From contig CM026423.1 in the NCBI GenBank assembly GCA_014871385.1, positions 5,742,967 through 5,806,966 on the forward strand: a DNA stretch of 64,000 nucleotides, read 5' to 3'. Positions 10,259 through 41,760 of the stretch are shown here, piece after piece. The stretch comes from Ceratodon purpureus. Lineage: Eukaryota > Streptophyta > Bryopsida > Pseudoditrichales > Ditrichaceae. How positions within the stretch are numbered: position 1 is the stretch's first letter; each line of letters begins with the position of its first letter. Position numbers and translations under genes: made by a program. The notes under the pieces were generated by a model. That model had not been told where the DNA came from, did no database searches, and saw only the letters and a list, made by a program, of their open reading frames with translations.

Positions 10259-11261
10259 AGGGAGGAGTTCTGTCCAGTAAGTTCATGAGCCTTTTGGTTC
10301 TTGACTGAGTTTTGGAAACTATGTATAATGGGACCCACCACTATTTGTTCTCTGTCTCATTGAATTGGATATACTTGTCATTAGGGGTGTTAGGGTGAGT
10401 GATACAACTCGTTGTAAGGAGAATTTAATATGTTCTAGTATTATTGTATATTTGGAGGGGGTTACGGGGTAAGTTAAGGTTTCCCGAGCTAATTCCGCCC
10501 TTTTCCTATTTCCGCCAGCTAGGAAATGACTAGAAGCCACTATCAACACATCTAATTACCACCAAACTCATGTTGTCACTGGTTTAGGCTTAGTTAATGG
10601 CGGTAATGGGGTTTAGATTGGGTGCAAATGGGGTCATGGAGTATTGGTAATGACAAGGGAGGTGAATCTACACTAAACTTTGTCAGAAACATGTGGTGGA
10701 AATAGACTTGGTGCATGGTGGGGAGGTAAAATGAAATTTGGGTGATTGTACATGCAATATGAGGTGGTTACTGATTGTTGTTTGGGTGATAAATGGGTTG
10801 GTCTACATGTGATTTTGGACCATTTGCACATACACCCTTAAAAAATTCATAACTAATTCAAATTTCATTAGAAAATTAGAATTTCACTTGTACTAGTTTT
10901 CAAACCTTAGCTACTATGACTAGAAAACTGTTGCAATTTTATAAATTACTCTAAAAATGGTTTACTCTTTCAGTTGGCGGAAATAGGCTGGGTTACCTTG
11001 GCATTTTGATTTGTATGATTGGACGATTTTTTCTCAATTTTTTCGGTAGCGTAGTTGTAAATGTCAACTTTTGATGATCTTTATTGTCCTTTTTATGACT
11101 TATATGGAGGGGTGTACAACTAGCCAAATTGATTTGAGTTGAGATTTTAAGGTCTTAGGTGGAAGTTTTTTAGTAGATTAAAAGCCATGGAGAGAGTTAA
11201 GGGATATTTAGGTAATTCTGGACAAAAAAAAGTCCAGAATTCAAAAATGACCAATGCGAAC
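10259..11261. other. Intergenic DNA left of the palindrome-bearing element
   Basis: AT-rich with scattered short ORFs and no recognisable gene. The composition and repeat content change at about 11.26 kb, where the first copy of the TCGGC-N5-GCCGA family appears. Confidence 0.45.
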
Positions 11262-12565
11262 TCAGCGGACCGCCGATGGATGGAGACCACAGATGAACAG
11301 TGTCATTGTACATGAATACCACAGAATATGGAATGCAAAACTAGACATCGAGATGTGCATGGGCGGAATTTGCCAGTGATGGATATATGAACCCGAAGAT
11401 TGCGACATATAATGCAGAATAAGAGTTACAATGAATACTTTAAAGAATATCATGTTGATTCAAGTAATGAAATGTACAATACAGAGTCGGCGACCCGCCG
11501 ATAATAGAACACGCTAAACTAACTAGTCCCGTAGCACTTTGAGTCATGAAGTCCTACAACATTAAGTCTACACCCAGCACTATGTACCAAGTTGACGTAA
11601 ATCCTATCACATTATAACCTACTCGGAAAACTATTTCCCTGAAAGCATAGCCGTAAGGTCAATGAGTAAATCATATATTTGAAGGCCGCACAAACGGGTC
11701 GACCAAGTCGGCGGGCAGCCGATGGAAGGTGTTCTGTTGGTCAGGAGGAGGGAAGAAGTGCAAGTTGGAGGCGAAAAAGTCCGCCTAACTCAGTCCCAGC
11801 AAACTTCAGTCCAGTCCACTCGTGCACGTCCAAACTTTCTCGCAGCTTCAATTGCCCAGTGCACTTGCCCCGGCCTACACGCCTGCGCCATATACTTCGG
11901 TACAGATCCGAACTTGTGCAAGGGATAAACCAGAGGAAGGATATCTGTTGCAATGTTAGGTATAACGCCGTCATCGTTCGGAAAGTTTAGATGACCCTGA
12001 AAAGGCCAAGGAATGTAGCACATACAGTTTGGTGTCCTCCTCAATGACCTCGGGTCAACATCCACAAATAGCACCTGATCTAGTTTGCAGACGTTTCTAG
12101 ACTGTACCTTGGAGCAAACTTGACCTAACGTCTTATAACTCCAGGGGAAATTCTCCCGGTCGATAAGGTCACTTCTGCTATACACGAAGGACAGCCTCTC
12201 CATTACACCGGCCGGCAAAATATGTGTGAGTAAAGGCTTCAGTTCTCCCAAGGGCATCTTCGACCACAGACCAACATGGAAATGCAAGAAAAGCATGTCG
12301 AAAAGCTTCTTCAAACCTGGGCGCTTCACTACATTCCGATGCGTATCCCATGGCAAAGCCTCTATCCTGGGATCCACATAGCAGAGAAGGCCATTGACGC
12401 ATAGGACAATACATTTCTTGACATGATGGGGTGGACCGTGAAGGCATTTGAAATAAAACGAGGAACCCTGAAGAATATGAAATGCAATCAGTGAAGGAAA
12501 TCAAGGAACAGGACGAAGTATATGAAAGAAATGGACTACATTCAAAGTCGTCGGCGACCCGCCGA
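11262..12565. repeat. Palindrome copies at the left end of the element
   Basis: Four members of the TCGGC-N5-GCCGA family: 11262-11276 (degenerate, TCAGC in the left arm), 11487-11501 (spacer GACCC), 11708-11722 (GGGCA) and 12551-12565 (GACCC). The region 11262-11790 between the element edge and the last FCP1-like ORF holds no convincing gene. The copy at 11708 lies about 70 bp beyond the stop of that ORF. Confidence 0.9.
11790..12467 (-). CDS. FCP1/NIF-type HAD-like ORF, copy 3 (degenerate active site, partial)
   Basis: Reading from a likely splice acceptor (TTCAG before 12467) gives GSSFYFKCLHGPPHHVKKC, then IVLCVNGLLCYVD, about 225 residues in all, to a stop at 11790. It aligns by eye with the two neighbouring FCP1-like ORFs. 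IVLCVNGLL matches VLDINGLLL, and VLFVDVDPRS matches LLVDDRPYR (HAD motif III region). The family nucleophile is Asp; here that position is Cys, so phosphatase activity is unlikely. The 5' exon(s) and start codon were not found; a palindrome at 12551 lies in the probable upstream intron. It could be a pseudogene or a repurposed scaffold protein. Confidence 0.55.
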   Translation of the reverse strand, partial: GSSFYFKCLHGPPHHVKKCIVLCVNGLLCYVDPRIEALPWDTHRNVVKRPGLKKLFDMLFLHFHVGLWSKMPLGELKPLLTHILPAGVMERLSFVYSRSDLIDRENFPWSYKTLGQVCSKVQSRNVCKLDQVLFVDVDPRSLRRTPNCMCYIPWPFQGHLNFPNDDGVIPNIATDILPLVYPLHKFGSVPKYMAQACRPGQVHWAIEAARKFGRARVDWTEVCWD

Positions 12566-12776
12566 CAAAACGATGCATTGAAGAAACCTCAAAGGTAAAT
12601 GTGCAGCAAGTGAAATGCCATGCATGCATCTACAAAAAGAAGTACCGAATTGCAGCACTGGAAACAATTGTGTGGTGCAGGGAAGTTCAGAAAGGGAACA
12701 GTCTTAGCGTATTAAACTAAAGAGTGCAGAGTATCATATGTGATTTTTAAAACTAGTGGCGCCGCTGAAATAGGCT

Positions 12777-13874
12777 CTAATCAGTCGGCTGCCCGCCGAT
12801 GATGGAACTACCAGGGGCCTCCGGAGGACAAGGTAAATTCACAAACCAAGATCCAGGATCACCCGGGACGTCAAACCCGCATGCATGAGAAGGAATAACC
12901 TCCCTATACTTCTGGTATTCGCGAGATCCTGGAAAAAGACGTGGCTTCCCCACGCTAGAATTCTTCCTACAATACTCCTGGACATCCAATCCAGACTGCT
13001 TAAGTCCTGCAAGGAATGGTGTAACTACCCTAGTTAAATAGGGATTGGGGGTGGGTTGAGGTTCTTTGCACTCTGCAGAGTCCCAGAAAAAAGAATTAGG
13101 ATGGACAGCGCTAAATGGATGATTAAGTACATTCCTATAAGGGCGGTCGTCTACCAGTAGGGTATTCTGGACAGTGGCACCTGATCGAGCCAGTAGCCTA
13201 GTGTCGCAGAAAAGTCTATCCAGACGCTTCAACAAGTACTCCCGTTTCCCATTCGGATTAGTCCTTGTTGAGATATCACACCAGAATCCTGGAAGGCGTT
13301 TGTAATTGCTCCTGAGCAAAGGATGAATGGCTAACAGCTTCTGGAAGTGACGATCGAGATTCTTTTCAGAAACCGTGGACCAAAAGACTACCTCGAAATT
13401 CGCCGTGCAGAACTCTAGAAATGAAAGAAGTCCTGGTGTAGCCCGGATATGAATTTTTGTCTTCTCGTCATCACCGATATACCCGTGGTGCTCCGCGATG
13501 AGCAATCCCTTAATGTCAAGGACAAGGTAGTATCGTTGGAGAGGTACCTCAATATTACGCGCAATAATATCAGTGCTGACACTGACGGAATCATGGCGCG
13601 GGGAACCGGTGCGCGGGATCGCGACGTTGGTCTCGACGAACGAGGTGGAAGCCATCGCACACCGGCCAGAGCTATGTGCAGCAGACAGCGTCGGCGGCCC
13701 GCCGACTGGATAGTCGTACTCGTCCTCCCCATCACTTTCATTCTCGGCTTCCGCTCCCGGAGACTCTCCTCTGTGAGCATCACCATCAGGAGATGTTGGG
13801 TACTCCTCCAAGAGCATACTAAGAAGGGAAGGTCCCTGGTGCACTTCAATTTCAGCGTCATCCTCCAGTGACTC
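12777..13874 (-). CDS. FCP1/NIF-type HAD-like ORF, copy 2 (5' end unresolved)
   Basis: The ORF probably begins at a splice acceptor (TTTTTCAG, exon from 13874) with ESLEDDAEIEVHQGPSLL and runs about 365 residues. An acidic N-terminal region precedes an FCP1-homology domain. HAD motif I appears as YYLVLDIKGLLI (nucleophile Asp kept, second Asp replaced by Lys). ANFEVVFWST follows, and motif III is LLVDDRPYRNVLN. Family knowledge: FCP1/SCP-type HAD enzymes dephosphorylate Ser/Thr, for example on the Pol II CTD, and normally need DxDx(T/V). Loss of the second Asp suggests altered or no catalysis. The palindrome occurs twice in coding DNA: at 13691-13705 (reading PVGGPPT) and right before the stop at 12785-12799 (reading GGQPTD). 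No start codon could be fixed. Confidence 0.6.
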   Translation of the reverse strand, partial: ESLEDDAEIEVHQGPSLLSMLLEEYPTSPDGDAHRGESPGAEAENESDGEDEYDYPVGGPPTLSAAHSSGRCAMASTSFVETNVAIPRTGSPRHDSVSVSTDIIARNIEVPLQRYYLVLDIKGLLIAEHHGYIGDDEKTKIHIRATPGLLSFLEFCTANFEVVFWSTVSEKNLDRHFQKLLAIHPLLRSNYKRLPGFWCDISTRTNPNGKREYLLKRLDRLFCDTRLLARSGATVQNTLLVDDRPYRNVLNHPFSAVHPNSFFWDSAECKEPQPTPNPYLTRVVTPFLAGLKQSGLDVQEYCRKNSSVGKPRLFPGSREYQKYREVIPSHACGFDVPGDPGSWFVNLPCPPEAPGSSIIGGQPTD

Positions 13875-14968
13875 CTGAAAAATGAAGGACAAATTCCAAG
13901 AAAACATGGGTGATCAATCGCATGCTCACAATTCATACTTGCTCTAGTGTACAAATGGAGACACAATAAGACACCCACGACAGAATACACAGTCTCGACA
14001 CTGAGTTCCGTTCTCATATATTTAAAAGGAGGAAAACTTTATTTACTGAAAAAGTCTAAATACATGAAGATCCCATCGGCGGGCAGCCGACTGAATCATG
14101 TGCATGCTCTCTAAAACAGTTTCTACATCTACTATGTTCTCTTTCGTTTAGGGCAATCAATGTGTGGAGAGAAGAGACTATAAGCTTCATCCCCCGGAAA
14201 CAGACGACGCTGACCGAATTCGGAGTGTTTCTGGCAGTACTCGGGCACGGGGAGTTTGGATTCTTTCAAACTGGTAAGCCAAGGAATCAATTCTCCAAGC
14301 AGATAATTCCTCTTATTTTCCGACTCCTTCGACTCGAAGGTATATGGTGTAGGGTGCACAGCGTTCCAAGGAGTGTTTGCGACATTCTTATAAGGGGAAT
14401 CATCAACCAAGAGAGTGTTAATTGAAGACGCCCCCGTCCCCTTCAGCCCGTCATCGAGGTCAAAGAGGGTCTGGAATCTCTTCAAATAAAACTCCCTACT
14501 AGCCTTATGTACGCAAGTCTCGCAGAAACTCTGGTCGAACTTGTAGCGCACTTCGGCATCTAGACGAGGACAGCGCTGCTGCAACACTGTCCACAGAATC
14601 TCGAACCTCTTTTCCTGAACGCAGCTCCAGAAGACCACCTCGAAATTGTCCAGGCAGAACTCTAGGAACTTCTCTAAACCCGGCCTAAGTTTAGTATTCC
14701 ACCTAGTACCCTGCTTCGTCTGGACTAATAGCAGGCCGTTAATATCCAGAACCAGAAAGTACTTCAGCACTGGATCGTGTACCTGAGTACCAGCCTGTTC
14801 CGGGGCTATGTGAAGTGGATTCAGAGGTGGAGGTCCCTGCTCCAGAACTGCACTGGGTCTATCTTCGTGAAGTTTTCCATGGACTTCCTTGTCCGCGGAC
14901 TCTGGAGTGACAGAAAACGAAGCAGAGGACAAACGTGACGGTTAGGATGACGGTCGGCGGACAGCCGA
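12785..14968. repeat. Palindrome copies in the FCP1-like cluster
   Basis: Exact copies at 12785-12799 (spacer TGCCC), 13691-13705 (GGCCC), 14076-14090 (GGGCA) and 14954-14968 (GGACA). Two lie inside coding sequence of FCP1-like copy 2. The one at 14076 lies between copies 1 and 2, 42 bp beyond the stop of copy 1. The one at 14954 lies 53 bp upstream of the acceptor-like start of copy 1, in its probable intron. Confidence 0.92.
14132..14901 (-). CDS. FCP1/NIF-type HAD-like ORF, copy 1 (5' end unresolved)
   Basis: Open to 14932, but the frame has no ATG and is stopped just upstream. A pyrimidine-rich tract ending CACTCCAG indicates a splice acceptor, with the exon starting at 14901. It encodes about 256 residues: a short acidic N-terminus, then KYFLVLDINGLLLVQTKQGT, LRPGLEKFLEFCLDNFEVVFW and LLVDDSPYKNVANTPWNAVHP, ending in a basic tail (CPKRKRT). 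This is an FCP1-homology HAD-like domain with the nucleophile Asp kept and the second motif-I acid changed to Asn. Of the three paralogues it is the best preserved. The conserved ending RRLFPG-(DE)-Y is shared with copy 2, showing tandem duplication inside the element. Confidence 0.65.
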
Positions 14969-15133
14969 CTTGCAAGCAACATTATTTGAAAAAAGGGAAA
15001 GCGTACAACTTGGCATTTACCGAAAATTTATTCACATTTGGCAGTACAAACATCTAACACAATCCTAGCGCCCGATCACTACACTAAATTATCAATGCAG
15101 GCATTTAAAAGATGGACTGGGCCACCGCCTGAT

Positions 15134-18100
15134 TCACTGACCTCCACCTTTGTGCTTCTTCGGCCTAGGCTCCCGTTTGGATGCCCGCACAGGTGACAGA
15201 ACGTCCTCTGGAGCGTCCACATTCCTGGGACTCATGAGCAGATCCCCAGATGTGCCCTTCTTGGAGGAAGTCTTCTTCGAAGCAGCCTTCCGTTTGCCCT
15301 TCCCAGAGGACTCCTCCCCTTCCTGAACCCCTGAGGAATCACGGGATAAGTTATCCACAAGAGAGGAATCCTGCGCAGTACCATCGGTCTTACTTCTCTT
15401 CATTGATCGTGTCTTGACCAGAGGGTTCTCATCCGGGCCAATCATCCGAGTTGCGCCCTTCACACCTTGAGTGACGAATGCGATTGACTTCCCTGTCAAC
15501 TTGGACTTGGCAGAGGGGTTAGATGAGGTTTGCTCGTCTGCCGTCGGCTGCCCGCCGACGGCAGCAGGAGGAACATGCCCTTCAATGCTCACTGCAGGCT
15601 CCTGGGTTGGCTTCTGGACACGGAGAACCACTTCATCGTCAGGCCTCGATGCTAGAGGAACCTGCATCTTCTTTGGACGCCCCGCCTGGTCTAAATCACG
15701 TTCTGGCTCGGCGGGAGGAGTCTCCTGCTCTTGAAATAATACCGAAGCTGAGGGAGTCAGTTCTGGTCTCCCGTAGAACTTGCGACAGCGGTGGGTTCAC
15801 GTAGCGAGGATTCGATTCTTCCAGTGGTAATACGTCGGGTTCTGGTTCATAGTCTAAGTCCTCCGTGTCTCGCTCCTCTTCCTCTGCATCTCCAGTTGGA
15901 ATGCGAGCCTCAGCTTGGTCGTCCTCGTTTCTTGGCTGTTCCTCAGCATCTCCAGCTTCATCTTCAACGTCTGGGTCGGGTACATCTGGTGGCTCGTCGT
16001 CGACATCGTCGTCGGAGTCCAGATAACTCTGTGAGCGAACCCCCGCAGTCTTCCCCGAACCCATACATCCACCCTTTCCGACCAAATGGGCCTCCTCCGC
16101 ATTCACACCCAAGTCGGCAGCCGTGAGAGAGCCAGTCCTGCCTCTAGCAGAGGCGGGGACAGACGGCCCGGCCCCAGACTGCGTGGTCTGAACTGGAGCT
16201 TGGACGGGCACGTTATAAACGCCCGGAATAAACGTCATATTCCGAACCCGACAGTGCGCTTCGTATCTCTCTTCCTTGGTACGCACGATCTCAATTACAG
16301 TCAAATGGTTTTTCTGCAGCAGAACAAGACGAAACGGTTAAGGAAATCTTCTACCCAAGAAACACGAAGGATTCAATCAGCGTCGGCTGCCCGCCGACGA
16401 TCGGTGAGCAAACAGCGAAGGCACCAGAAGAGACTGCAGTAACTTACCAGAGCGAGGGCCGTGACGTTCCCCCCTCCCCAGCAATTGATCACCCGAACGT
16501 CCTCAATCTGCATCGCTTTCTCAAGAAGAGATTGGAGGAAAGAGTAACTAGCGTGGCAGTGTCCATTTGACCAATCCTCCCCAAGATGATCTTCTCCTTC
16601 GTCCACATAGGGAGGAAGCGGACGTTTCAAACCAGTGAAGTCCGAGAAGGTATTCCATGCATCCCCGGGCGTTGTTTTTGGATACATAACGGACACATGA
16701 ACCTTGGGTCTAGAGTCAATGAGAGAACTCCTTTGAAACCCGGCGGAACTATCAGGGAAGTACTGCATAGTATGAACCGTCCACGAATTACTCGTCAGCC
16801 TTGACACGCCTTGAAGAGTGTGATTACACTCAGCATCGAGTAGCCACAACGATGGGGTGACAAGCTTATTCACCTTAATTGTATCTACCTCCCCATCCAG
16901 AATGACCTCCTCCTCCACCTCACGGTGAATCCTCTCAGCGACAGTTATAACGTGTTGTTGTCGCATGTTAGGCATCTCCTTTCCCGCTGGATCGTAGCCA
17001 AAGACCACGAACATCTCATACTGCGCCTTGTTGAAGGAGAATGCTCCGCGAACGTCAAGAGCTGTGCACACTTCACCCAGGTCCTGTGCAATCCGAACAT
17101 CGAACTGTACAGACGACTGCGAAGACTGGTCCACATCCGACTTCCAGTACTTTTGCACAATGTCTTTAAAGAATTCTGGTGTTGGCCCGTGCGACGGCGT
17201 GAGCGGATGATTCCGTCCCTTAAGCCACTCCTTCCCCTCAGGACTATCTTCCAAGTCAGCCCGAATATTACTAACCATTGTATCATTGAACCCCTTCTCG
17301 ACTTCAAGGCAATTCCAGTCATCCATGCTCCACTCAATATGCTTCCCAGTCCCTGCTTTCTTCAGTGCAAAGCCCCTGTAAATACACATGAGCTCGTTCC
17401 GGACAACATACTCGTATTTCACATGCTTACACCAATTCTCAACTGATGTTCCATCCCGTTGAACCACCTCTTTCCCAGTGACCTTGACGTACACTTTAAG
17501 GTCCAGAATTTCCTTGGCCAGCCTCTTGCATTCGTGGTCCCGAAGACCGATCACGTACTGCATGTCGTTGAGTGTTATGTCCCGGCGGGCTGGCTTTGGG
17601 GGAAATCCTGGTTTCAAACCGTCCTCCCCGATGATCCTCCCCTCCTCCCAGGCGTCGAACACCAGTTGCCACTCGTTGTATGTTTCGTCAGACACGAAGA
17701 CTAAGGGCAGCTTGAAGGTTTGGGACGTAGGGGACTTTCCGAGAATCGGACTGAGGTACTCCTTGCAGAACTCCTGCAAGTAAGAAGAAAATGACATTGA
17801 TAAATAAATCCCACTTCTACAATACAGAGAACCACTTGAGCGTCGGCGGTCCGCCGACGACTTTCAACTACATGTAAACAACAGGAAAAGAGGAAGATGT
17901 GAATTACCTTCCATGCGCTGAAGTCATCTTTCTTGTCGATCCTCCCCCGCTCGATCCATTTGGCGCGCATCTTCGCCAGCTGGGACCTGAAACTTACTTC
18001 GGCGACTTTATCCTTCACCTCGATGTTTAATGCGTTAGAGACCTTAATGAGGGTATCCTTGTTATCAGCATATACAGGAATGATATCGTGGTTAAGGTAA

Positions 18101-19726
18101 TACTGCCGCATAGGAGAGTCCAGTGGTTCCTTCTCTCCCAGTTCTCGACAAGCTTCAAACGTGTGCTGGCCCCCAATTATGTACCAGTGGATGCCCTCAT
18201 CTTCATACCAAGGTACCAACTTAGATGTGCCGTCATCCAGTGTAAGTGAATACTTGATATTTAGGGCATGCCAAGGTCGAAGAAGTCCTTCCAAGCCTTT
18301 AAGCTTAATCTCGCCCGTCACTGGATCCTTTACTCTGGGGTCACCACTCATAGGAAGGCAGTACAGCTCGGGCTTCTTCCGGATTGCTCCAAGTCCTTTG
18401 TAGAAAAGACTTATCTGATCCTGCCTCTTCCTGAATATCGCTCTGTACTTAAATTCGTCGGGAGCTATGTGTATCCTGTTATATGGAATCTGACAAGGAA
18501 GGGCACGTTGCCCGTTGGGGAAGCAGTGCCCAAGTCCCTCCTCCAACGTCTGGTACATGGCAAGGACGTCGGTGTCCTTTGTTTTGGAAGTGAGATTGTT
18601 TGCGAGCATGAGAGCTTCCGCCACGGTCTGCTTTTTCTCTTCCTTCTTCCCACCTTTCTTCTTCCCACCCTCGCCCTCAGCAGCCGCTGCCTTTCCCTTC
18701 TTCCTTCTCGATGACTCCCCTGTCGTCTGTGTCTCTCCGGTCTCGGGGGTGACTGTACCAGTGCCCGCTTCTACAGCAGACTTGCGGCCGCCTCTTTTCT
18801 TTGCTGAAGGCTTAACCGAGTTCTTCGTCTTCTCTTCCATCACTTTGTCCCCGAGCGTATCAATCACGTCGAGTATATGATCAACAGCTATGTTCTCACC
18901 CCTGCCCCAAGTAGCCGCATCCTGTACTTCTTTAGAGCACAAGCCGTCCATGCACTTCTCAACCGGAATTACAACCGCGAAGCAGTCCACTGGTGTGCCC
19001 TCCGCGACAGGAACCGATGCAAACACCAAGCACACGTTGTCGTTATCCTCGCATTCCCTGGCACCAATAATCTCAAATCTTGGTCCACCTGCCATTTGCT
19101 TCTGACCTATTTTGGTCACGAAGCCCAGCGACATGGGAGTGTCACGCCAGGTGATGCCCCACTCCGTTATCTTCGAATCAGCGAGGAATGTCACCCTCGG
19201 TTTCAAGCCCCGTGCGAGTATTTCTTCTTCAGGATCAACAACCTTGTCACAGAGCCACCGTAACCCATTTGGTTTTGCGGTGGAGTCGACCTTCGCCCTG
19301 CAAAATTAGAATCACAAGATTAGACCATCAGATTCTCACTCCATCGGCGGACAGCCGACGGGGCGGATGGACACGCCCTCCCCATCGGCGGACAGCCGAC
19401 GGGGGGAATAACCCATGTGAGAAAATAGAAAAATGAAGGACAAAAGAAGGAGTGGCGTCGGCGGACAGCCGACGGGAGGGACAAACCCATGCGAGAAAAC
19501 AGAAACATGAAGGACAAAAGAAGGAGTGGCGTCGGCGGACAGCCGACGGGAGGGACAAACCCATGCGAGAAAACGGAAACATGAAGGACAAAAGAAGGGG
19601 TGGCGTCGGCGGACAGCCGACGGGAGGGACAAACCCATGCGAGAAAATGGAAACATGAAGGACTCAAGAAGGGGAGCGTCGGCGGACAGCCGACTGGACA
19701 ACTTACCCACTCTCGGAGGCTGCCAT
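15134..19726 (-). CDS. ParB-like domain fused to a DNA-methyltransferase-like domain, five exons
   Basis: Exons (minus order) 19707-19726, 17908-19297, 16448-17773, 15834-16313 and 15134-15778 join in phase to about 1286 residues. The start has a strong plant context (GCCATGGC). At about residues 376-430, HWYIIGGQHTFEACRELGE and IPVYADNKDTLIKVSNALNI match the core of ParB-like domains (GGxHxxEAxxxL, then a D-x-L-x-x-x-N block). Near residue 902, VINCWGGGNVTALALK followed by LTVIEIVRTKEERYEA matches motif I and the following strand of beta-class DNA methyltransferases, where motif IV precedes motif I. The expected DPPY motif IV would fall near MYPKTTPG (about residue 832) and looks degenerate. 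Linkers are Lys/Ala-rich, and the C-terminus is acidic, then basic and NLS-like. The 55-bp last intron is the least certain junction; a frameshift there is the alternative. Confidence 0.7.
15544..17857. repeat. Palindrome copies inside the ParB/MTase-like gene
   Basis: Exact copies at 15544-15558 (TGCCC; last exon, reading AVGGQPTADE on the minus strand), 16383-16397 (TGCCC; middle of intron 16314-16447) and 17843-17857 (GGTCC; middle of intron 17774-17907). Both introns are 134 bp long and carry the palindrome at the same distance, 70 bp, from the acceptor. Their other sequences do not match by eye. Confidence 0.92.
19344..19693. repeat. 74-bp tandem array of palindromes in intron 1 of the ParB/MTase-like gene
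   Basis: Six copies of TCGGCGGACAGCCGA start at 19344, 19385, 19458, 19532, 19606 and 19679. From 19385 the spacing is 73-74 bp, and the whole unit is repeated (it contains GGGACAAACCCATGCGAGAA and AACATGAAGGACAAAAGAAG). All six have the spacer GGACA in the same orientation. The array lies wholly in the 409-bp intron 19298-19706, just inside the start of the gene and next to the divergent promoter. An array of identical sites beside a promoter suggests a regulatory or transposase/ParB binding platform. Confidence 0.9.
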
Positions 19727-20735
19727 GGCGTCGGCGGATGGCCTTTCACCGTCGGCGGATGACCTTCGAACAGCAGCCGACGCGCGCAGGTGAAGGAGCC
19801 GACGCCCTCAACCCTAGCAGCCGACGCAGAAAAACCTAGCAGCCGACGCGACCTCTGCGGAGCGCTGAGAAGAGGACAAAAGAGAGCTGAAAAAGAGAAG
19901 GCTGGAAATGAGGAGGAAATGTCGGGAGTGGCGGGTGTATACCCTGCAGACCCCCACCTCCCGAGACTGAATCGTCACGCCCGATGGATCATGACGTATG
20001 GCTATGTACATACCATCCATGCATGGATGGTCATCCCTAACATCCGTCCCATCACGCCACGTAGGATGATGATGGGACGTCTTTTGACTTTTTTTCAATC
20101 CGCCACCAAGTCATGATGGCGTGGGCATGTGATGTGACAGCTGCTCCAATCGCCCCGTTTAAATTCGTAATAATGAACTAACATTGTTCTGTGACGGCGG
20201 GGGTATCTCGCCGCCATGATGGGATCTTGATCTGTCCAAGGCGCGCAAAATTGAATTCGATTCTGGCGCCAATTTATACTCCTGGGAATTCATAACTAAC
20301 CCCCCGTCAGATGCGCATACTTCATTCTATTTCTGTCATTGCACTTTCGATTCCCTCTGAGAGTGCTCCTGACGCACACGTTTCCTGAGAGGACCGTTAT
20401 TATTCCCGCATGTGCTTAACTGTCCCGCACCTTCTGTTGCCGTTTCTGTTGTCTTCGTCTATCGTTTCTGATTGGACGGTTGAGAGGAGTCTCTGATTGG
20501 ACAGGTTAGGGACATCATACTGCTTCTCAACTAAGGTCCCCTGCAATTTCTGTCGGCGGACGTGTCCGTCATCGTCGGCGGATGCTATTTCTGTGCACAC
20601 TCCGAGTCGTACGATCCGCGTCGGCTGCCCGCCGAGTCGTCTTCGTTGTCGGCGGATACATTTTACTCCGTCGGCGGGGACACTTCCCGTCGACCCTGTC
20701 GGCTGTCCGCCGACGAGGTCTTCATCTTTTATCCA
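19727..20735. promoter_or_regulatory. Divergent promoter region of the element with half-site cluster
   Basis: This 1.0-kb region separates the start codons of the minus-strand ParB/MTase-like gene (19726) and the plus-strand transposase-like gene (20736). Half-palindromes are frequent near both sides: GTCGGCGGA near 19730 and 19751, GCAGCCGACG or close variants near 19773, 19797, 19817 and 19840, and more half-sites at 20551-20690. Exact full sites lie at 20621-20635 (TGCCC) and 20699-20713 (TGTCC), in the leader of the plus gene. The middle (about 19.9-20.5 kb) has no gene. I could not assign TATA boxes or start sites. Confidence 0.6.
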
Positions 20736-22585
20736 ATGGAAGTAGAGCCGATCCAGACGTTTCTAAGGAATGGCCGATCAGGGCGGTGGAAGGTTAAAAA
20801 GGGCGTTGTCGTGGCCCTTACTTATTCTGGGCTCTATTATGCAGGTAGGGCAGTGATCCAACGTGTTGTAGAATTTGATCCTATAGTGGTGGTGGTAAAA
20901 GTGATTGAGGTTTCAGACAGCATGGAAATGAATATACCATTTCCGGATGAGGGTGTGAAGTCCTTGACCAACTGCTTAGGACAAATGATATTGTGGGAGG
21001 CGGCCGACCTCAGGCCTTTCGGAGAGGTGGAAGACGATGACATCAAGGCCGTCGGCTGCCCGCCGACGGATGTTGAAGAAGATGTCAAGCCCGTTCAAAA
21101 ATTCCTGGACCTCGCAGAGCAGATGGAAGTTGCGCTCCTCGAGGAATCCGAAGGCTCAAAGCGTTGTGTAGCCGCTGGAGTCATTATGGAGTGCTCTCCT
21201 AAAGGAACGTGGGAGGGGTTCTTGATTCCTCACAGCTTCTTTCTAATAGTGAGAGTGTCGTCCGTCAATCCAGAATTCTCCGAAATACCTGCCTTCTGCG
21301 AGTTACCGGATGTGTTAACGATCGGGTGTGCTGTGGGGCGATTGGTACTTTGGAGTGGATACAAGGTATGTCCACTTGTGAACGGCGCGTTGGCTGGCAC
21401 ATGTCCCGTCGGCTGCCCGCCGACGGAACCTCACTTGGGGAACGAAGATGAAGAAATTGATGAAAGCAACTCCGCTCCGTCTGAGCAGGATCTGGGGACT
21501 AGGTCTCCAATGAATATCAGCAGTGACGACGATGTGTCTAAACAAGGGGAATCCGACGTAGAAACAGATGATCATTGTTGGGGTCCGGATTCCGGGACCT
21601 CGGGTACTCCTTCCACTCCAGATGCTTCTTATCCTGATCGCCACCTCTGGAGAAATCGGTATGTCGAACTTCTTAATGATGATCTATCAGTCCGTGGTAG
21701 AGCAATGATTCAAGTATGTTTACCGGACGAGGCATGTGATGATGAAGTCCTAGGGGATACAGAGGTTGGGGTTCTCTTCGTCTCTGAAGACGATCATCTG
21801 CAGATGACAACTCTCAGATGGCGTCTGACTCACACTCGGTTAGAAGGGGGTCACCTTCTCTCTGATATAATTACTTACTGCTCCGAGAATTTAGCAGACG
21901 CCGACGCGGACGATGGTCTGGATGGTGTCCCGAAGAATGCCTATCGATCGGTGCGGAGGAAAGTTCGCGAAAAAGATGACGTCTCTTCCACTAAGATTCG
22001 TCGAATGGTTGTCCCTGCTGAATGCCGCTTAGTGAGCTCAAAGCGCTGTTGCAAGGACCGATGTTGCCAGACTTTTAGATGGGAAGATACTGTGAGTATT
22101 CGTCGTAAGTTTTACGCAACAACATTCGAGGCGAGGCGAGAGATGTCCTTCGCTGTGCAAGGGCACTTACATACTGTACCCGGCAAGCGGAAGCTCTATG
22201 TTACTCTTGCGAACGTTGACGTATGTGAAGTGGCGTGGTATATCATTCACGGAGTATCGAAATCCGCGTACTACAGCTACAAGGCTTCGGCCCGAAGTGG
22301 TCGTGTCAGTGGGAGTCACGGAAATTCCGGTGTACATCGTCCCCAGATTCACACAATCCAGGCCCGCGCGACGTTGACCACTATCGTTAATGAGAATGCC
22401 GACCAAATGCCCAATGAGTTTCGGATGATTGGCAAGAAGAGAGTGGCCGCGCTCAAAGTACTCCCGTCTGCGATGAACTGGAATCACATGCGCGAAATGG
22501 CCAACGCCGTAAGTTCCTCCTCATCTTCTTTCACTTTGGATAGTTCACTGAATTGTAGTGATTACTATCGTCGGCTGCCCGCCGA
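20621..22585. repeat. Palindrome copies in the transposase-like gene
   Basis: Exact copies at 20621-20635 (TGCCC), 20699-20713 (TGTCC), 21052-21066, 21409-21423 and 22571-22585 (all TGCCC). The first two lie in the leader, the next two in coding sequence in the same reading frame, and the last in the centre of the 125-bp intron (22509-22633). All five share one spacer orientation, TGYCC. Confidence 0.93.
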
Positions 22586-24457
22586 CTGGATGACGAACTT
22601 CCCAACTGATCGACCTCACTGTGTGCTATTCAGGTCAATGAGCAGTGCAACGCGAAGCTGATTTCGCAGTCCTCCGTTAGTCGCATGAGGAAGGAGTACT
22701 TCCGCAACGTTGAGGTCAAGGCAGTAGGAAGTAATTTCTCCAAGTGCACTGAGTGTGACTTCCTCGTTGAACTCATTGCCAAGTATCCAAGAGGGTCGGA
22801 CGAGTGGCAGAGCTTGACAGAGGATAGGACCAGGCATTTGAACTATCAGCGAGCTTGTCGCAACATTTATTACGGATGGACAACCCAATCTATACAGAGT
22901 CCTACTGAGTTCCTATGCATCATACATGATAAGATGGACACATCGAAAACAGCGATCCCCCGCATGCAACGTATCACGAAGGCTACGGCAGGGCTTGGTC
23001 AAATTCCAATTTCTTGTACTGGAATGCTGATTCACGGTCACGGAGATGGCGCCTACGCACACTATGCAACTGCCCTGTGGCCAGGAGACCCAAATTTCAC
23101 CATCTCCTCGTTGTGCAGGGTATTCCGTGCCTTGGAGAGACTACCTGTCCGGGAGTCAAAAGCACTCTTCGAGGCACCGCCACAGAATGAATTCTTTGCA
23201 GCGCTAATGCATGGATCGTCACGTTGCATCCCCTCAATTCCACCTTCTAGAGATGAGCCACTCACTCCACCTCTGCCTGGTAGGCCTGCTGTTCCTTTGC
23301 CGAAGAAGTTGTATCTCCAGCTTGACAATTCTGCGAAGGACAACAAGAACCGGTTTCTTCTAGCATTCTGCTCGTTGCTGACGGCGAGGCGAATATTCAA
23401 GGAAGTTACAGTTGGTTTCCTGATTGTGGGACACACACATGAGGACATCGACGCCCACTTCAGTCACCTATCGAAACTCATTAAGCGAAAGAACACATAC
23501 TGCCTTGCCGACCTTGTGAAGGCATTCATGGATTCTCAGAAGACAGTTGCCTTTATTCCAGAGGTTGTTCAGGAAGTGGCAGACTTCAAAAGTTATGTTG
23601 CTGATTTTCATCACGACGGAGGTAATGCGATAGAAGGTCACAGTGAAATGCATCTTTTTAAGTTCTATGTAGAGGAGGATGGGGAGGATGCGGGGTGGCC
23701 CGTGATGAGGTACAAGAAGCGTGCAACTGATCCGTCATGGCTTCCACCTGGCAAACCCGTGAAAATGTGGAGGGCAGACAAAGAGGGTAAACCACGTTTG
23801 CCCGTCGGTGATCCCAAACCGGTTCCTCATAAGCACTTATGGGGTAGTGTTGAAGTCGATGAGGGCAAGAAGAACGCGGATAAAGAGGTGGCAAGGGCAG
23901 CGGAGTGTTCAGAGAAGAGAAATTTCATCAAAAGTGGATTATCTAAGTACATTGAGTACTGGAGAACTGGCATGGCTCGGGATAAGAAATACGCACAAGA
24001 CATGTTACCATATGTACTGTATTGGGAGCGAATTTTAAAGGAGGTCAACGAGCCACTGCCCCCCAATTCCGCCACCTTACAGGAAGGATTCTGGCCTATC
24101 TCAGACTGGAAGCGGGACCACGTCACCACATTCGATGCAGAGGACGAATATATACCGGATCCGGATATTCGTCCCGGTGACGAGGATGAGGTGGAGCCCT
24201 ATCCTTTCTGTGGTCCGAAAAACTCTAGGCCGAAGTTTGTGTTTAACCCATATCGTGACGTTTTACGTGGCGATTGGGTTTTCTGTCGTCCGTGTAAGGA
24301 AGACCACCTACCCATTTGGATGGGTAGGGCGATAGAGCCTGTTATAACAGAGCCTGGTCCTAATTACGGTAAGTTCAAGGTTGAATGGTGGACTCCGATG
24401 AAGGGCAAGAAGGAAGGTAAGAAGAAGGTTGCGAGAGAGTGCTGGACAAGACGGTAG
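20736..24457 (+). CDS. DUF7869-type, RNase H-fold transposase-like protein, two exons
   Basis: Exons 20736-22508 and 22634-24457 (intron 125 bp, phase 0) give about 1198 residues. ATG 20736 is the first Met in a frame open from upstream. A long N-terminal part with acidic patches is followed by a cysteine cluster (CRLVSSKRCCKDRCC, about residues 430-445). The C-terminal half resembles the DUF7869 family in IIHDKMDTSKTAIPRM (about 687), LYLQLDNSAKDNKNRFLLAF (about 820) and VGHTHEDIDAHFSHLSK (about 857). The acidic residues in these three blocks have the order and context of a DD(E/D) triad, so a transposase or integrase role is my inference. Two palindromes are translated within it (AVGCPPTDV at 21052-21066, PVGCPPTEP at 21409-21423). 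An amber codon ends the frame at 24455-24457, but the same frame continues coding-like to 24646. Confidence 0.75.
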
Positions 24458-24646
24458 GAAAGGGAGTTGACTCTTGCGGAGTGGGTGGAGTGTAAATCCG
24501 TTGTATACACTCATAGGACCAAGAAAACTACGCATGAGGGGCCCCCAAAGTCCCATCTAATACCCGAAGATGTTGTGATTGCTGCCATGGCAAACTTCGA
24601 ATCGCATGGAATCTCGATGAACTGGAATGACGAGGAGGAAGACTAG
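24458..24646 (+). pseudogene. In-frame continuation of the transposase-like gene beyond an amber codon
   Basis: Directly after TAG at 24455-24457 the same frame stays open for 62 codons, with coding-like composition: ERELTLAEWVECKSVVYTHR, and later PEDVVIAAMANFESHGISMN, ending NWNDEEED and a second TAG at 24644-24646. The second stop abuts a palindrome copy (24647-24661). The simplest reading is a nonsense mutation (for example CAG to TAG) that removed 63 codons from the ancestral protein. Stop readthrough or an unrecognised splice are alternatives. Confidence 0.6.
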
Positions 24647-24983
24647 TCGGCTGCCCGCCGACGATTGTGATCTTAGCTGTAGAAGATGTAGCTAGTGATG
24701 GTTTCCTCTGTAAACGTTATAGTTGAATATTGTAAACACTGTGATTCCTTCGAATAAGAATTGTATTCTACCATAGACCCAATACTAGTCATGTATTACG
24801 CTTTGTCTTCTATTTGTTGATCTGATGCCTTACTTTTCCTTCTTCGGTGGTCGTCGGCTGTCCGCCGATGCCTCTAACCATGTTAGATAAGCATCATGAA
24901 CGGTGACTTTGTGAGGCTGGTCTATATTGTATGGCCTGTGATTTTTACGGTGGACACTGTTACTCTAGTCGGCTGCCCGCCGA
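24647..24983. repeat. Palindrome copies downstream of the transposase-like gene
   Basis: Exact copies at 24647-24661 (TGCCC), 24854-24868 (TGTCC) and 24969-24983 (TGCCC), in the same spacer orientation as those in the gene. The surrounding DNA, which probably includes the 3' UTR, is less GC-rich and has no ORF of note up to about 25.3 kb. Confidence 0.9.
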
Positions 24984-25296
24984 CGCTTTCCACAAAATTG
25001 GTAGAACCACTATGCGCTTTGATAAACTGATCAAAAATATTTATCCATTTCATTATATTCTTATCGGAGTACAACGGTAGTGTTCCGCCCTTTACATGTT
25101 ACTTTGTATTGTGTATACATCAGAGATGCCACTACTCCTAAAGCCTCAGTAACAAATGCTAACCATGAATTCTACAACTATCCGAGTGTGTGAAGCAGCT
25201 CTATTGAAAACGAGCTGGACAGTTCTAACACACAGTAATTCACCCTAAAGCCAAAAAACCAAAAAGCTGCATATGGTCGCCAACGCCATGAAGCGA

Positions 25297-25809
25297 TCAG
25301 TCCTTCGTAGTAGACTTGGCTCGGACAACACTACACCCAGTATCGACGGATGGATGCACGGATCCAAACGACGAATACGTGGACTGCGGGCTTGCGTTCC
25401 CTCCGCACCACTGATCTTGGCCAGAGCACCGACTTCCAGCACCCTCCGAGATGTCGTAAGCTTCGTCAACAAGGCGGAGCCACCCTGCAGTTGACATGGT
25501 TTGCGTTGACACTTCCCCTGTGTGGCTGAAGTGAACACTGCCAACACTCCCGGACTCCTCGGACTCCTCGAACGTCAGTGGGAAGGCGATGCCGGAAGCG
25601 TCAGAGATCTCCAACAACTCAATGCTGTGAGCAATACTCCAAAACCACCGCGCACCTGGCTGCAGAAGGCGTGGGATGTATCTGAACTCTGGAATGGCGG
25701 TGTTGCGAGAACGGGCGACCACCGCCCTATACCATGGCCGGAGCTCCTCGAGGTTAGCCGGTGTCTCCCGACCAAATGGTCGCTCCACATTGCTACCCCG
25801 CCTCCCCAT
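25297..25809 (-). CDS. Orphan protein of 170 residues inside the element
   Basis: A single uninterrupted ORF with an ATG at 25809 and coding-like composition (MGRRGSNVERPFGRETPANL, then WFWSIAHSIELLEISDASG and an acidic stretch FEESEESGSVGS). No signal peptide, membrane segment or recognised motif. It lies convergent to the transposase-like gene near the right end of the element. I do not recognise it. It may be an accessory gene or the last exon of a larger one. Confidence 0.45.
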   Translation of the reverse strand: MGRRGSNVERPFGRETPANLEELRPWYRAVVARSRNTAIPEFRYIPRLLQPGARWFWSIAHSIELLEISDASGIAFPLTFEESEESGSVGSVHFSHTGEVSTQTMSTAGWLRLVDEAYDISEGAGSRCSGQDQWCGGNASPQSTYSSFGSVHPSVDTGCSVVRAKSTTKD

Positions 25810-25830
25810 AACGACAAAATATTGGACAAT

Positions 25831-25901
25831 ATGCGACTAACTTCTACAGTATGCGACCTGCTTCTACAGTATGCGACCTTCTTCTACAGTAGACAGCCGA
25901 C
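25831..25901. repeat. 20-bp tandem repeat leading into a half-palindrome
   Basis: CTTCTACAGTATGCGACCTG-type units start at 25841, 25861 and 25881 with a 20-bp period. A partial unit precedes them at 25831. The last unit runs into GACAGCCGAC (25892-25901), the right half of a GGACA-type palindrome. Confidence 0.85.
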
Positions 25902-25986
25902 GAGTTCGTCTAGTAAACTGGTAAACGTTCTAGTAATCCACTTCTCTAGGGTTTTCTGGACGACTAATTGCCAACGTCGACCTAGT

Positions 25987-26290
25987 CTAGTAGCCCCTAC
26001 TCCCCTACTCGGCTGGTAGCCGACTAGGACTAGCCTACTCATCATTTGCATTATTAGGACTAGGACTTATTTACTCATCATTAGGACTAGTAGCCCCTAC
26101 TCTCCTACTCGGCTGGTAGCCGACTAGGACTACCTTACTCATCATTTGCATCATTGGGACTAGGACTTATTTACTCATCATTAGGACTAGTAGCCCCTAC
26201 TCTCCTACTCGGCTGGTAGCCGACTAGGACTAGCTTACTCATCATTTTTATCACTAGGACTAGGACTTATTTCCTCATCATTTTTATATG
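25987..26290. repeat. 100-bp tandem repeat, three copies, each with a variant palindrome
   Basis: TCGGCTGGTAGCCGA occurs at 26009-26023, 26109-26123 and 26209-26223, exactly 100 bp apart, within a repeated unit that also holds TAGTAGCCCCTACTC and several ACTCATCATT and AGGACTAG sub-repeats. The spacer TGGTA is found only here. The array sits about 400 bp inside the right end of the element, where many DNA transposons carry subterminal binding sites. Confidence 0.9.
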
Positions 26291-26341
26291 TATTTCAGAT
26301 TCCAGAGGTCGGTTCAGTGAGGAAGAGGTTGGCTCTCCTAC

Positions 26342-26645
26342 TCGGCGGCCAGCCGACTACAAAGGACTTCCATTCGTTGTGACCGTGAATACTGTTCATT
26401 CTAAACGACGACTCCGGAGTCCTCACAGACGGACACCCCAATGTGAGATGCCTGGCAGTCGTGTCCACTCAGCGGGTCGCCGACGATCTTCCCTTCACCC
26501 GCTTCACTTCACAGATCCACATTTTGCAGACAAGTATTTCCTTTTATTAGAACAGATAGATTTCTAAGGATAGGGTTTCTAGGGTTTAGGGTTTCTAGGG
26601 TTTAGGGTTTCTAGGGTTTAGGGTTCTCAGTCAGCCACTCGCCGA
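26342..26645. repeat. Right-end palindromes and telomere-like repeats
   Basis: An exact copy at 26342-26356 (spacer GGCCA) is followed by degenerate copies at 26469-26483 (TCAGC, GGGTC) and 26631-26645 (TCAGC, CACTC). Between the last two, 26571-26625 consists of alternating TTTAGGG and TTTCTAGGG units (16-bp period, about three repeats), resembling plant telomere sequence. A 62-codon ORF at 26379-26567 spans one degenerate palindrome and has no recognisable domain. Confidence 0.8.
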
Positions 26646-28640
26646 GAGATTCGGCCATGACAGTGGGACTGGGATGTCCTCTATTCAACATTATAATAAA
26701 TTCACTCAAATGATTTTATCCCTTGTAAACGGAATGCATTTTTTCATAAATATTTGACATCTTTGTCTTTAAATTTGAGGGATAACACATGAATTGGACG
26801 TCTACTGATGATGCAAAGTAGTCCATAATTGAGCGTTTAGTCCATAATTACTTAAATACCCCTTAGTTAAGTTCAATCTTACTTTAAATGAATTTTATAT
26901 TTAGGCCACACATTATAATCAATTAAAAATGAATATATAGATTTACATTCATTATTCAATTGTATATATTAATTAGCAAATAATTTTATGCCATCTATAT
27001 TGAATTTTTATATGTTTGAATAGATTACTCTCAAATTGCATCAAAGCAAATTTAAAAAATATTGGAATATTGTTTCACATAAAATATAAGATTTTGGAAT
27101 AAATTTATTTTAAAATTATATAAAAAATATTCAAAATTACAATATTTGATAAAATTTAGATTCTTACAATACAAATTGATTTGTGAGATAAATGAAGTAT
27201 TTAACATATATCACAGTAATTTGATTGAATCAAGATTAAGTGCATTATTTCAAAGTTGAAAATGATGATCTTAGACGTACTTTAATAACTCATTTTGAAA
27301 TACAATATGTGACATTCATGACGATCATGAATTTCGTTCTAAAGAAACTCAAACATGGTAAAATTATAAGCACGATGGTCCAAAATAATCTTACAATTAA
27401 GAACCATACTTAACCACTTGTAAACAATTATAAATTCATTTATTGGTGGAATTCGTTGCAAATCAAATCATTGTTTCATAATTTATTTTGGATTCTTTTA
27501 AAGTTTTGATAAATTAAAATTAAAAACACTTAATATGTCAAGTGTTTTTTTGTTTTTGATTAAAGTGTACCTGAACTTCACTTGATGACGGAAGGAGGCA
27601 ACATTGAGTGAAATAGTGTAATTTTCAAATAGGTGAGGGGAACTACAATGTAGAAATTCTCTCCCTTGAAGGTGTGAGACTACGGGTTTTAGAAAAATGT
27701 GATTGTTTTGGAAGTTTTTAAAAGCAAATTGTTGTGATTTAATTTTTTTTTTCCTTCTTTTGTATGTTTATGTTAGTTGGAGAACCATGCAACTTTGATT
27801 GACAAATCATAGGATTTTAGAACAATGCAGTGTATAGGAGATGGGATTTTCTTGATACAAAAGTGATCACCGCAATAGAAATATATGCAATAAAAACTAA
27901 TAATGGAAGGAGTTGGAAATTTCTTTATAATGAAAAATAGTTGTGGTTTTTGTCAACTTGTAGAAAGAAGAGTAATTGAGTTTGTTCAAAGATGATATCT
28001 TCATAAGAAAAAGGATCAAAACTAAGGACAAAGTAGAGGATTTTTGGAGGTATAATATCCACCATCCAGCACAAAATACCAATTCATAGAGTTTTTATTT
28101 TTTGACTTGTAAGCCATAAATTTCAGTCTATGTTAAAGGTATGAAAGGCACATAAAACACTATTTATTATTAAATTGGGAATTTGGCATGAATTTGGACC
28201 TTCTAAAAACAAAAATTATATTATTATTGGAATTTTTTAAATTCATGTTTTTTGTGTATCATAATATTTATAGTATACTTAAAATATCATTTCAAAATTA
28301 AAAAAACACATTCAATTTATTATGAAAAAATATTAAAATTCATATAAAAAATGATGTTATTTGGAACCATGGAAATTACCAAGTTAATGAATATAATGTT
28401 AGAAGAAGTCTTATTTCTTTTCATTTTTTGCTTGAAGTTTTGAGGAAATAGGAAGAATACAAGAAGATCTATTTATTTATTTAATTTATAGGATTTTTAA
28501 TATACTATATACAATTAACATGGCTCCAAGTTGAACATCTTTTCTGTTTCTTATCTATAATTTATTTTTTCTTATTATAAATCCACAATTAATAAAATTC
28601 CTCTCTAACTTATCTCTATACTTTGACTATTAGTCTTGTT
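26646..28640. other. AT-rich intergenic DNA right of the element
   Basis: Very AT-rich, with frequent stops in all frames, no domain-bearing ORF and no RNA gene that I can recognise. It contrasts sharply with the GC-richer block to its left. Confidence 0.6.
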
Positions 28641-40200: not shown

Positions 40201-40908
40201 GATACCCGTCAGCTTGTTCTGCGCAAACCCCAGAAAGTTCAAGCTCTTACACCCCTTGATCTCGGGCGGAATGGGCCCGCTTATGATGTTCTGCCCAGCT
40301 CGGATTATCCTCAAACTACTCAAGTTCCCGAGCGACGCCGGCAGAGGCCCCGTCAAGTTGTTGGTGTACAGCAGTATCTCCTGCAACGCGCTCATCTTCC
40401 CAATTTCCGCCGGAATAGCCCCTTGCAAGTTGTTATTCATAAGATACAAACTCTCCAGCGCGCGCATCTTCCCCACCTCCCTCGGAATCACCCCGCTCAG
40501 GTTATTCATACTCATATCCAAAAACACCAACCGCGACAGCGCCCCAATCGCCGCCGGAATCTCCCCCGTGAGCCGGTTCGACGACAGATTCAGGTACCGC
40601 AGCGTGACCAACTTGCCAATGCTGGGAGAGATGGTACCTGAGAGATTAAGCCCGCCGAGATCCACATCCACCACTCGCCCTCGCCGGCTACTGTTGAAGC
40701 AAAACACCCCCGTCCACTGGCACGGATACTCATCCTCCCCATTCCAGTCCCCCAAATGCCCATACACATCCCCCAAGCTCCCCTTCACCTCCAGCAACGC
40801 CTCCCCATCCGGCGACAACCCCTCCACCATCCCAAACACCACCACCACCATCACCACCACCACCACTCCCCATCCCCACCCCACCCCTCCCCTCCGCCTC
40901 TCCCTCAT
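37201..40908 (-). CDS. LRR receptor-like protein kinase (class XI-like), two exons
   Basis: Exons 37974-40908 and 37201-37724 join in phase (CACCTG to AGTATG), giving 1152 residues. Order: hydrophobic signal peptide (about 15-32), N-terminal LRR cap with CQWTGVFC, more than twenty LRRs of the plant type (LxGxIPxxIG), a membrane segment (about 740-768, [20 protein letters not shown]), then a kinase domain. The kinase has [36 protein letters not shown] and, across the splice, APEYAYT. These are all the residues of an active RD-type Ser/Thr kinase. Family knowledge: class XI LRR kinases perceive peptide ligands at the plasma membrane. The intron falls inside the activation segment (APE). The C-terminal tail is unusual: acidic and Thr/Ser-rich, with repeated (S/T)EEPI and KEPVS motifs. 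A (CT)n tract at 41210-41229 lies upstream. Confidence 0.93.
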
Positions 40909-41760
40909 GACGCCCGCTCTCCGCTCCTCTTCATGCCAAGCTATGTCCCCACCCCATCTAGTCGCCCCAATGCTTGACCGATTCCGAGCTTCACAGGCTC
41001 ACCCCGAGAGGACCACCATGGTGTGCACGAGGACTAGCATCTCCAGGCGAGGAGAGCACGGCGAGCGGCATCTCCAGGGAAGGGCGTGGAATGGCGCGGG
41101 AGCAAGCCGCGGTGGCGATGGTTGTGGCAGCACGCGAGCGAGGTCGCTGCGTCGTCGTCGTCGCTGTTGTTGGTGAGCCTCATCGCTAGTCTTGCCGACC
41201 TCCTCCCCCCTCTCTCTCTCTCTCTCTCTTCCCCGCACCGGTGGGGTCTTCACAGCATCGGTGGAGACTTGGAGTGGATCTTGGAAGGGTCTTGAAGGGG
41301 TCTTGGGGGTCTTGGGAGTCCTTGGAGGTGAACACGACAAGCTCTGGGTCTTGGTATAGGTGCGACTCGAGTGGGGCCCACTTCCTTCCAAGGAGTCTTG
41401 GAGGTCTTGGACTTGGGTGGGGCCCACGGTCTTCTCGGGCATGGTGGGGTCTTGGGAGTTTCGGTGGGGCGTATTGACGGGGTCTCGGGAGGTCTTGGGT
41501 GGGGCCCGCAGTCTTGGCCGCGGGGACGGGGGTGGGAACTTGAGGAACATGAGGGTTTTGTCACCGCTGTCTTGGAGTGAATGCGGGGGCGGCGAAGGGG
41601 GCGAGGGGGAGGATCACACGGTTTTGGAGGATACCGGGGTGGGGCCGGGGGGAGAGGGGAGGACAGTCCTGGGGATGCCGCCTTTGTCAATTGTCATGCG
41701 CGACCGGTGTCGCCGTCGCGCAATGCATGTGAAGCTGTGGGGTGTTTGATGTGGGCCATG
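40909..41760. promoter_or_regulatory. GC-rich upstream region of the receptor kinase with CT tract and GGTCTTGG minisatellite
   Basis: Upstream of the minus-strand kinase gene there is a run of about ten CT dinucleotides (41210-41229; GA on the sense strand), a type often seen in plant leaders. Next, 41275-41560 holds many irregular copies of GGTCTTGG/GGGTCTTGGG separated by 5-40 bases. Overlapping ORFs on both strands (for example 40109-41176 +) arise from this GC-rich composition and are not called. Confidence 0.5.

Follow-up and report, generated by a model that had tools for sequence, protein, structure and literature searches.

The 64-kb stretch of Ceratodon purpureus contig CM026423.1 analyzed here (the window) holds a giant mobile element of 15,666 bp (11199-26864), as good as certainly a DNA transposon, with both termini present, a divergent pair of large genes, three NIF/FCP1-like frames, and a dispersed family of palindromes of the form TCGGC-N5-GCCGA. 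An initial annotation, made without database searches, had proposed a giant class II transposon or other selfish element at 11262-26645. The transposon is borne out by terminal inverted repeats, 4-bp target-site duplications, and many dispersed near-identical copies; the limits, in contrast, were too narrow, since the true ends, placed from other copies, lie further out. The features of the element and its immediate borders are as follows (E, expect value).

11195-11198: target-site duplication, left copy, AGTT
11199-11223, plus strand: left terminal inverted repeat AAGGGATATTTAGGTAATTCTGGAC, the left end of the element
11262-11276: subterminal palindrome with one mismatch, TCAGCGGACCGCCGA, 63 bp inside the left end
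11487-26356: exact palindromes, 28, dispersed
11790-12500, minus strand: NIF/FCP1-like frame a (Pfam NIF, E 2.3e-5, match from profile position 33)
12777-13913, minus strand: NIF/FCP1-like frame b (Pfam NIF, E 7.7e-8, DIKG at the first HAD motif)
14132-14941, minus strand: NIF/FCP1-like frame c (Pfam NIF, E 2e-12, DING at the first HAD motif)
15134-16313, minus strand: 3′ exon or exons of the putative ParB/methyltransferase-like gene, encoding an acidic and then basic tail, splice structure uncertain
16448-17773, minus strand: exon B of the same gene, ending in a methyltransferase-motif-I-like stretch, NCWGGGNVTALAL
17908-19297, minus strand: exon A of the same gene, with a ParB-like stretch, HWYIIGGQHTFEACRELG
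19344-19698: six palindromes between the divergent genes, five of them within a 74-bp tandem array
20736-22508, plus strand: exon 1 of the transposase candidate, start and splice donor inferred
22509-22633, plus strand: inferred intron of the transposase candidate, with one palindrome (22571)
22634-24457, plus strand: exon 2 of the transposase candidate, DUF7869 (Pfam, E 2.9e-44)
25987-26282: 100-bp tandem array with three palindromes, close to the right end
26840-26864, minus strand: right terminal inverted repeat AAGGGGTATTTAAGTAATTATGGAC, the right end of the element
26865-26868: target-site duplication, right copy, AGTT

The terminal inverted repeats are 25 bp long, match at 22 of 25 positions, and give the element AAGGG termini. 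Among 26 copies examined, a 4-bp duplication fits all 14 in which both ends are readable (12 exact duplications, one in poly-A, and one with a shifted end fitting AACA); in the remaining 12 the right end was outside the 1.7-kb fetched stretch (11 copies) or masked (one). The abrupt change of composition claimed for both sides is only partly seen: G+C per kilobase is about 0.42-0.56 within the element and falls to 0.24-0.34 at 6-9 kb and to 0.25-0.26 at 27-29 kb. The stretch at 9-11 kb, however, already stands at 0.44, and values above 0.5 occur elsewhere in the window, so composition is insufficient to set the ends.

The genome searched comprises 362.5 Mb in 151 contigs, one of them of 110.5 Mb. 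A 33-base transposase motif was found at 192 places with up to three mismatches (control 0), a figure that counts motif places and not full-length elements; if most of them are full-length, the giant family would amount to about 3 Mb. At the left border, all 40 places scored from 267 candidates were 99-100% identical with a sharp edge. The right-border search returned 113 matches from 40 scored places (of 378 candidates), of which 40 long ones were 98-100% identical; the shorter ones came from the tandem array or, in one case, from an end of a miniature inverted-repeat transposable element (MITE). The DUF7869 exon is free of stops in 60 of 71 scored copies, at 98-100% identity, and the ParB-like exon A in 80 of 92, at 93-100% protein identity; both lists hold the best-scoring copies only, and that of the ParB-like exon reaches deeper. 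The same contrast between the exons appears in single copies, for example 93% at C5:15314609 and 99% at C5:15319420. Because the compared copies are 98-100% alike in the transposase region, the spread of the giant must be recent, and the system may still be active. The many copies and terminal repeats rule out a block of host genes. A viral origin was likewise rejected, since a search of viral contigs with two element proteins found no close relative and the best PHROGs match was at E 0.21.

All 28 exact palindromes of the window fall inside the element, as had been claimed from the sequence, against a mean of 0.03 and a maximum of 1 in 100 dinucleotide-preserving shuffles. The palindrome as first described is real; its consensus is longer, cgTCGGC[GT]GNC[CA]GCCGAcg, with an odd center. 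When up to two substitutions are allowed, 38 sites (the 28 exact ones included) lie within 11199-26868 and 6 elsewhere in the window, and further one-mismatch palindromes stand towards the right end at 26469 and 26631. Across the genome there are 4737 palindromes per strand compared with 51 for the reversed control; as far as the sites were listed, they are concentrated in the giant family and its MITE. Neither an even genome-wide spread of the palindrome nor a single-copy block, either of which would have counted against the initial annotation, was found.

Placement within the element is far from uniform. The reading frames counted make up 65% of the element but hold only 5 of the 28 palindromes (binomial p 4.7e-7), and the avoidance persists after two palindrome clusters are collapsed (5 of 21, p 1.5e-4). 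Two tandem arrays, of 74 bp and 100 bp, account for 8 of the 28, and each of three inferred introns contains one palindrome (17843, 16383, and 22571). The five in-frame palindromes (12785, 13691, 15544, 21052, and 21409) are translated in a common frame, each giving [VI]-G-x-x-P-T within a linker-like segment.

The palindrome recurs in the MITE family, whose hallmark is a terminal repeat of a third class, AAGGGATATTTAAGTAATTCTGGAC, with 60 exact occurrences in the genome (control 0). Six MITE loci were fetched, about 400 bases each, of which five are independent, since two of them, L089 and L090, have identical flanks, lie 27 kb apart, and represent one duplicated locus. That pair excepted, the loci are 90-96% alike; MITE length is estimated at about 370 bp, the fetched loci stopping short of the right terminus. 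An exact palindrome lies 58 bp inside in five of the six loci, and the sixth has one mismatch. Moreover, a palindrome-bearing 35-base pattern was found about 40 bases inside (30-50 accepted) at 52 of the 60 exact MITE ends, with 0, 1, and 2 mismatches at 34, 14, and 4 of them, respectively; a mismatch may fall in flank or arm. MITE and giant are alike in the palindrome and in their ends, over 29 bp (97%) at one and 45 bp (87%) at the other, together with matches of the inner part of the MITE far end to the left end of the giant (E 0.016 and 0.056); beyond the first 50 bases, the palindrome, and this far-end stretch, nothing scored under E 0.6. At one locus (L060), a MITE end that is missing its first bases lies in the right flank of a giant copy, directly adjoining it.

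Many further DUF7869 frames are encoded in the moss genome (150 scored of 1401 candidates), and none was found in 14 control genomes. Two loci, L085 and L086, are related to each other and 35% identical to exon 2 of the giant (tblastn). In the 8 kb retrieved for each locus, the palindrome of the giant is absent and its other genes have no significant match. These loci have instead an odd-centered palindrome of their own, TTTAGCTCAC-N-GTGAGCTAAA, which forms tandem arrays of 25-26 bp ahead of the frame and has at least one copy after it; it occurs at 24 and 27 places with up to three mismatches, some of them by chance. The 19-base core of this second palindrome has 631 occurrences in the genome (control 0), and around one copy its listed sites span 10 kb or more, C1:18083425-18093648. 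The L085 element is longer than 8 kb, because five other places match nearly all 8 kb at 90-99%. A palindrome of its own is thus present in two of the three DUF7869 lineages looked at. Three DUF7869 frames with the profile range of the second lineage stand exactly 2312 bp apart (C6:84407513, 84409825, and 84412137), likely a tandem triplication.

The DUF7869 protein named in the initial annotation is confirmed by its Pfam match. Aspartates 107, 110, 239, 244, 279, and 281 are invariant across three DUF7869 sequences, two of which are close relatives. A PDB profile search with the protein gave a single match, at E 2.1 and not to a transposase, and the open-licence literature yielded no paper on DUF7869. 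The minus-strand gene, divergent from the transposase candidate, is multi-exon, and a further exon upstream of exon A is implied because exon A has a splice acceptor. Its identity as a ParB/methyltransferase-like gene is a motif-level guess: the exon A stretch GGQHTFEACRELG presumably resembles a ParB-like domain, and we take the exon B stretch to resemble methyltransferase motif I. Neither label, both of which go back to the initial annotation, was confirmed by Pfam, PDB, PHROGs, NCBIfam, or phage searches. For ParB there was no Pfam, PDB, or phage match, and plasmid matches began at E 0.1, one weak match at E 2 being an annotated ParB/Srx protein. For the methyltransferase there was no Pfam match, and a DPPY-type motif is absent from the four exon frames read (a single LPPY occurs in exon B). 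The three FCP1-like frames hold up as Pfam NIF matches but not as classical phosphatases. The classical FCP1 signature is DxDx(T/V), which is replaced in two of them, by DIKG in frame b and DING in frame c; no such motif was detected in frame a.

The giant would be best accommodated among the Sola transposons, a putative assignment suggested by its 4-bp duplications, size, and Ectocarpus-like layout, which agree with published Sola traits, and by the aspartates invariant in its DUF7869 protein and relatives. EnSpm/CACTA elements have CAC(T/G) termini and 2-3 bp duplications, and this superfamily was ruled out by the AAGGG termini and 4-bp duplications. Passages of PMC10741241 describe Sola elements as having 4-bp target duplications and a DDD transposase, in some cases exceeding 15 kb, and as present in the moss Physcomitrella; the 4-bp duplications also appear in a passage of PMC3627910. 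The moss giant shares with that superfamily its duplication length, terminal inverted repeats, and size above 15 kb. No named plant element with this gene set was known to the initial annotation; outside plants, a similar arrangement has been published for Sola1-1_Ec32 of the brown alga Ectocarpus, described in part of PMC12477816 as a giant of 21.5 kb with a ParB-like and DNA methyltransferase gene on the strand opposite the transposase. The same passages raise the possibility that accessory proteins of this kind bind the transposon encoding them and modify it (PMC12477816). Likeness between the two giants lies in the accessory gene opposite the transposase; the moss element differs in that its ParB/methyltransferase label is at motif level and in its three FCP1-like frames, dispersed palindromes, and palindrome-bearing MITE. 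Section 5 of PMC12477816 does not mention a palindrome family for Sola1-1_Ec32, and among titles and abstract openings in the open-licence literature none concerned an element like this with palindromes.

By analogy, the nearest functional parallel would be the VANC/VANDAL system, VANDAL elements being Mutator-like. In Arabidopsis, according to passages of PMC5735166, VANC21 binds a short motif in noncoding tandem repeats of VANDAL21. The two systems are alike in having an element-specific short motif in introns, upstream regions, and tandem repeats and a variable accessory protein, and the moss palindromes, too, are concentrated in noncoding parts and tandem repeats. Unlike the moss sites, the VANDAL21 motif, YAGTATTAY, is not a palindrome of this type; its binding is demonstrated in the same passages, whereas binding of the moss sites is a prediction.

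We consider the giant to be probably a recently active, Sola-kind cut-and-paste transposon whose palindromes serve for self-recognition by a DNA-binding dimer that the element itself encodes. The DUF7869 protein would be the transposase, acting on the terminal repeats and leaving 4-bp duplications, and the two-fold symmetry of the palindromes would be read by a dimer, either the transposase complex or the ParB-like accessory protein. Such recognition could mark the whole element as self, could help to bring its ends together for transposition, and might keep the element open or modified against silencing; we infer the binding itself, the identity of the binder, and the anti-silencing role. Recognition of element DNA is suggested by the MITE, which has only the tips of the giant and one palindrome, and is favored because the palindromes avoid reading frames, the second lineage has a different palindrome, and VANC21 provides a precedent.

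Several observations weigh against this reading. A mutation test took in 10 palindromes within 4,260 terminal positions, each represented by 10 or more copies. By number of variable positions, the palindrome arms were no more conserved than the rest (12/100 versus 503/4110 variable positions, p = 1) or than their 15-bp flanks (36/300, p = 1). An apparent conservation of the arms by all variant letters (12/3175 versus 1198/123198 outside palindromes) vanished when variable positions were counted. The MITE copies are related by descent, so that the 52 of 60 ends are not independent events, and L085 and L086, as relatives, represent one lineage. A third lineage, L087, has no repeated palindrome in 3.5 kb, of which about 2.3 kb precede the first recognizable frame. 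Finally, two structure predictions (mean predicted local distance difference test scores of 35.7 and 36.1) are too poor to judge a fold.

The more specific proposal, that the ParB/methyltransferase-like protein reads the palindromes as a private address code, giving a land-plant transposon family a prokaryote-derived, self-targeted system of binding or DNA modification with an address differing by lineage, is one we regard as rather doubtful. If it were true, each element and its address-bearing MITEs would be recognized apart from the host genome. In algae, giant Sola elements that carry ParB-methyltransferase genes have been described, with an accessory role that is only proposed in the passages concerned (PMC12477816); a lineage-specific, dispersed palindrome family is a concrete candidate target for such accessory proteins, and the palindrome-bearing MITE makes palindrome function testable with a 370-bp reporter.

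The palindromes might serve against silencing alone, recruiting an element-encoded factor that strips host DNA methylation or prevents it, as VANC does for VANDAL, and being unneeded for transposition. We think this possible but on the unlikely side. Their noncoding and partly tandem placement matches what passages on VANDAL21 describe, and the ParB-like exon is more variable than the DUF7869 exon, as expected of a fast-changing specificity protein. CpG positions in the arms also vary less than other CpG positions (5/49 versus 80/310, p = 0.018), although this is one of five comparisons and uncorrected; it could reflect less methylation at the palindromes or chance. A MITE of about 370 bp, in turn, is too short for these genes yet bears the palindrome, which a transposition site would explain at least as well.

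Two further explanations dispense with an element-encoded binder. That the palindromes are host transcription-factor sites giving stress-responsive expression is very unlikely. We take the arm GCCGAC to be the dehydration-responsive element/C-repeat (DRE/CRT) core bound by AP2/ERF-DREB factors; on the outer side, 23 of the 28 palindromes have a C next to the right arm and 21 have a G next to the left arm, and six palindromes stand just upstream of exon A between the divergent genes. Palindromes also occur, however, in inferred introns, after genes, and in the MITE, the palindrome of the second lineage is without a DRE core, and DRE function is not known to need a fixed 5-base spacing. Improbable as well is that the palindromes are by-products of descent, an ancestral near-end palindrome having multiplied with tandem repeats while the MITE kept the ancestral end. 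The share of palindromes in the two arrays and the lack of general arm conservation favor this, as do the closeness of the MITE palindrome (58 bp inside) to the left subterminal one of the giant (63 bp inside) and the small gap without similarity at the other end, the match of the MITE to the right end of the giant running over 45 bp to about 12 bases short of the palindrome. Yet the right end of the giant has no palindrome near that distance, the nearest being at 26631, and the match to the left end stops at 29 bp, about 28 bases before the palindrome. The single palindromes in three separate inferred introns have unrelated flanks, and the second lineage carries a different palindrome that likewise forms arrays before, and has copies after, its transposase frame.

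Among minor observations, the window has no Rfam match at gathering score, and a structural RNA was rejected. A telomere-like repeat, TAGGGTTTCTAGGGTT, is present in 3.4 copies at 26571-26625 of the window, close to the right end of the element. Two giant copies, C1:12870551 and C1:12903691, have equal scores and one TGA each and lie 33 kb apart, possibly a segmental duplication. Outside the element, the window includes a host-type leucine-rich repeat (LRR) receptor kinase gene at 37201-41613 on the minus strand, with LRR_1 (E 1.9e-71) and Pkinase (E 7.2e-33) matches at 37807-40998 and an extra kinase piece at 37201-37740.

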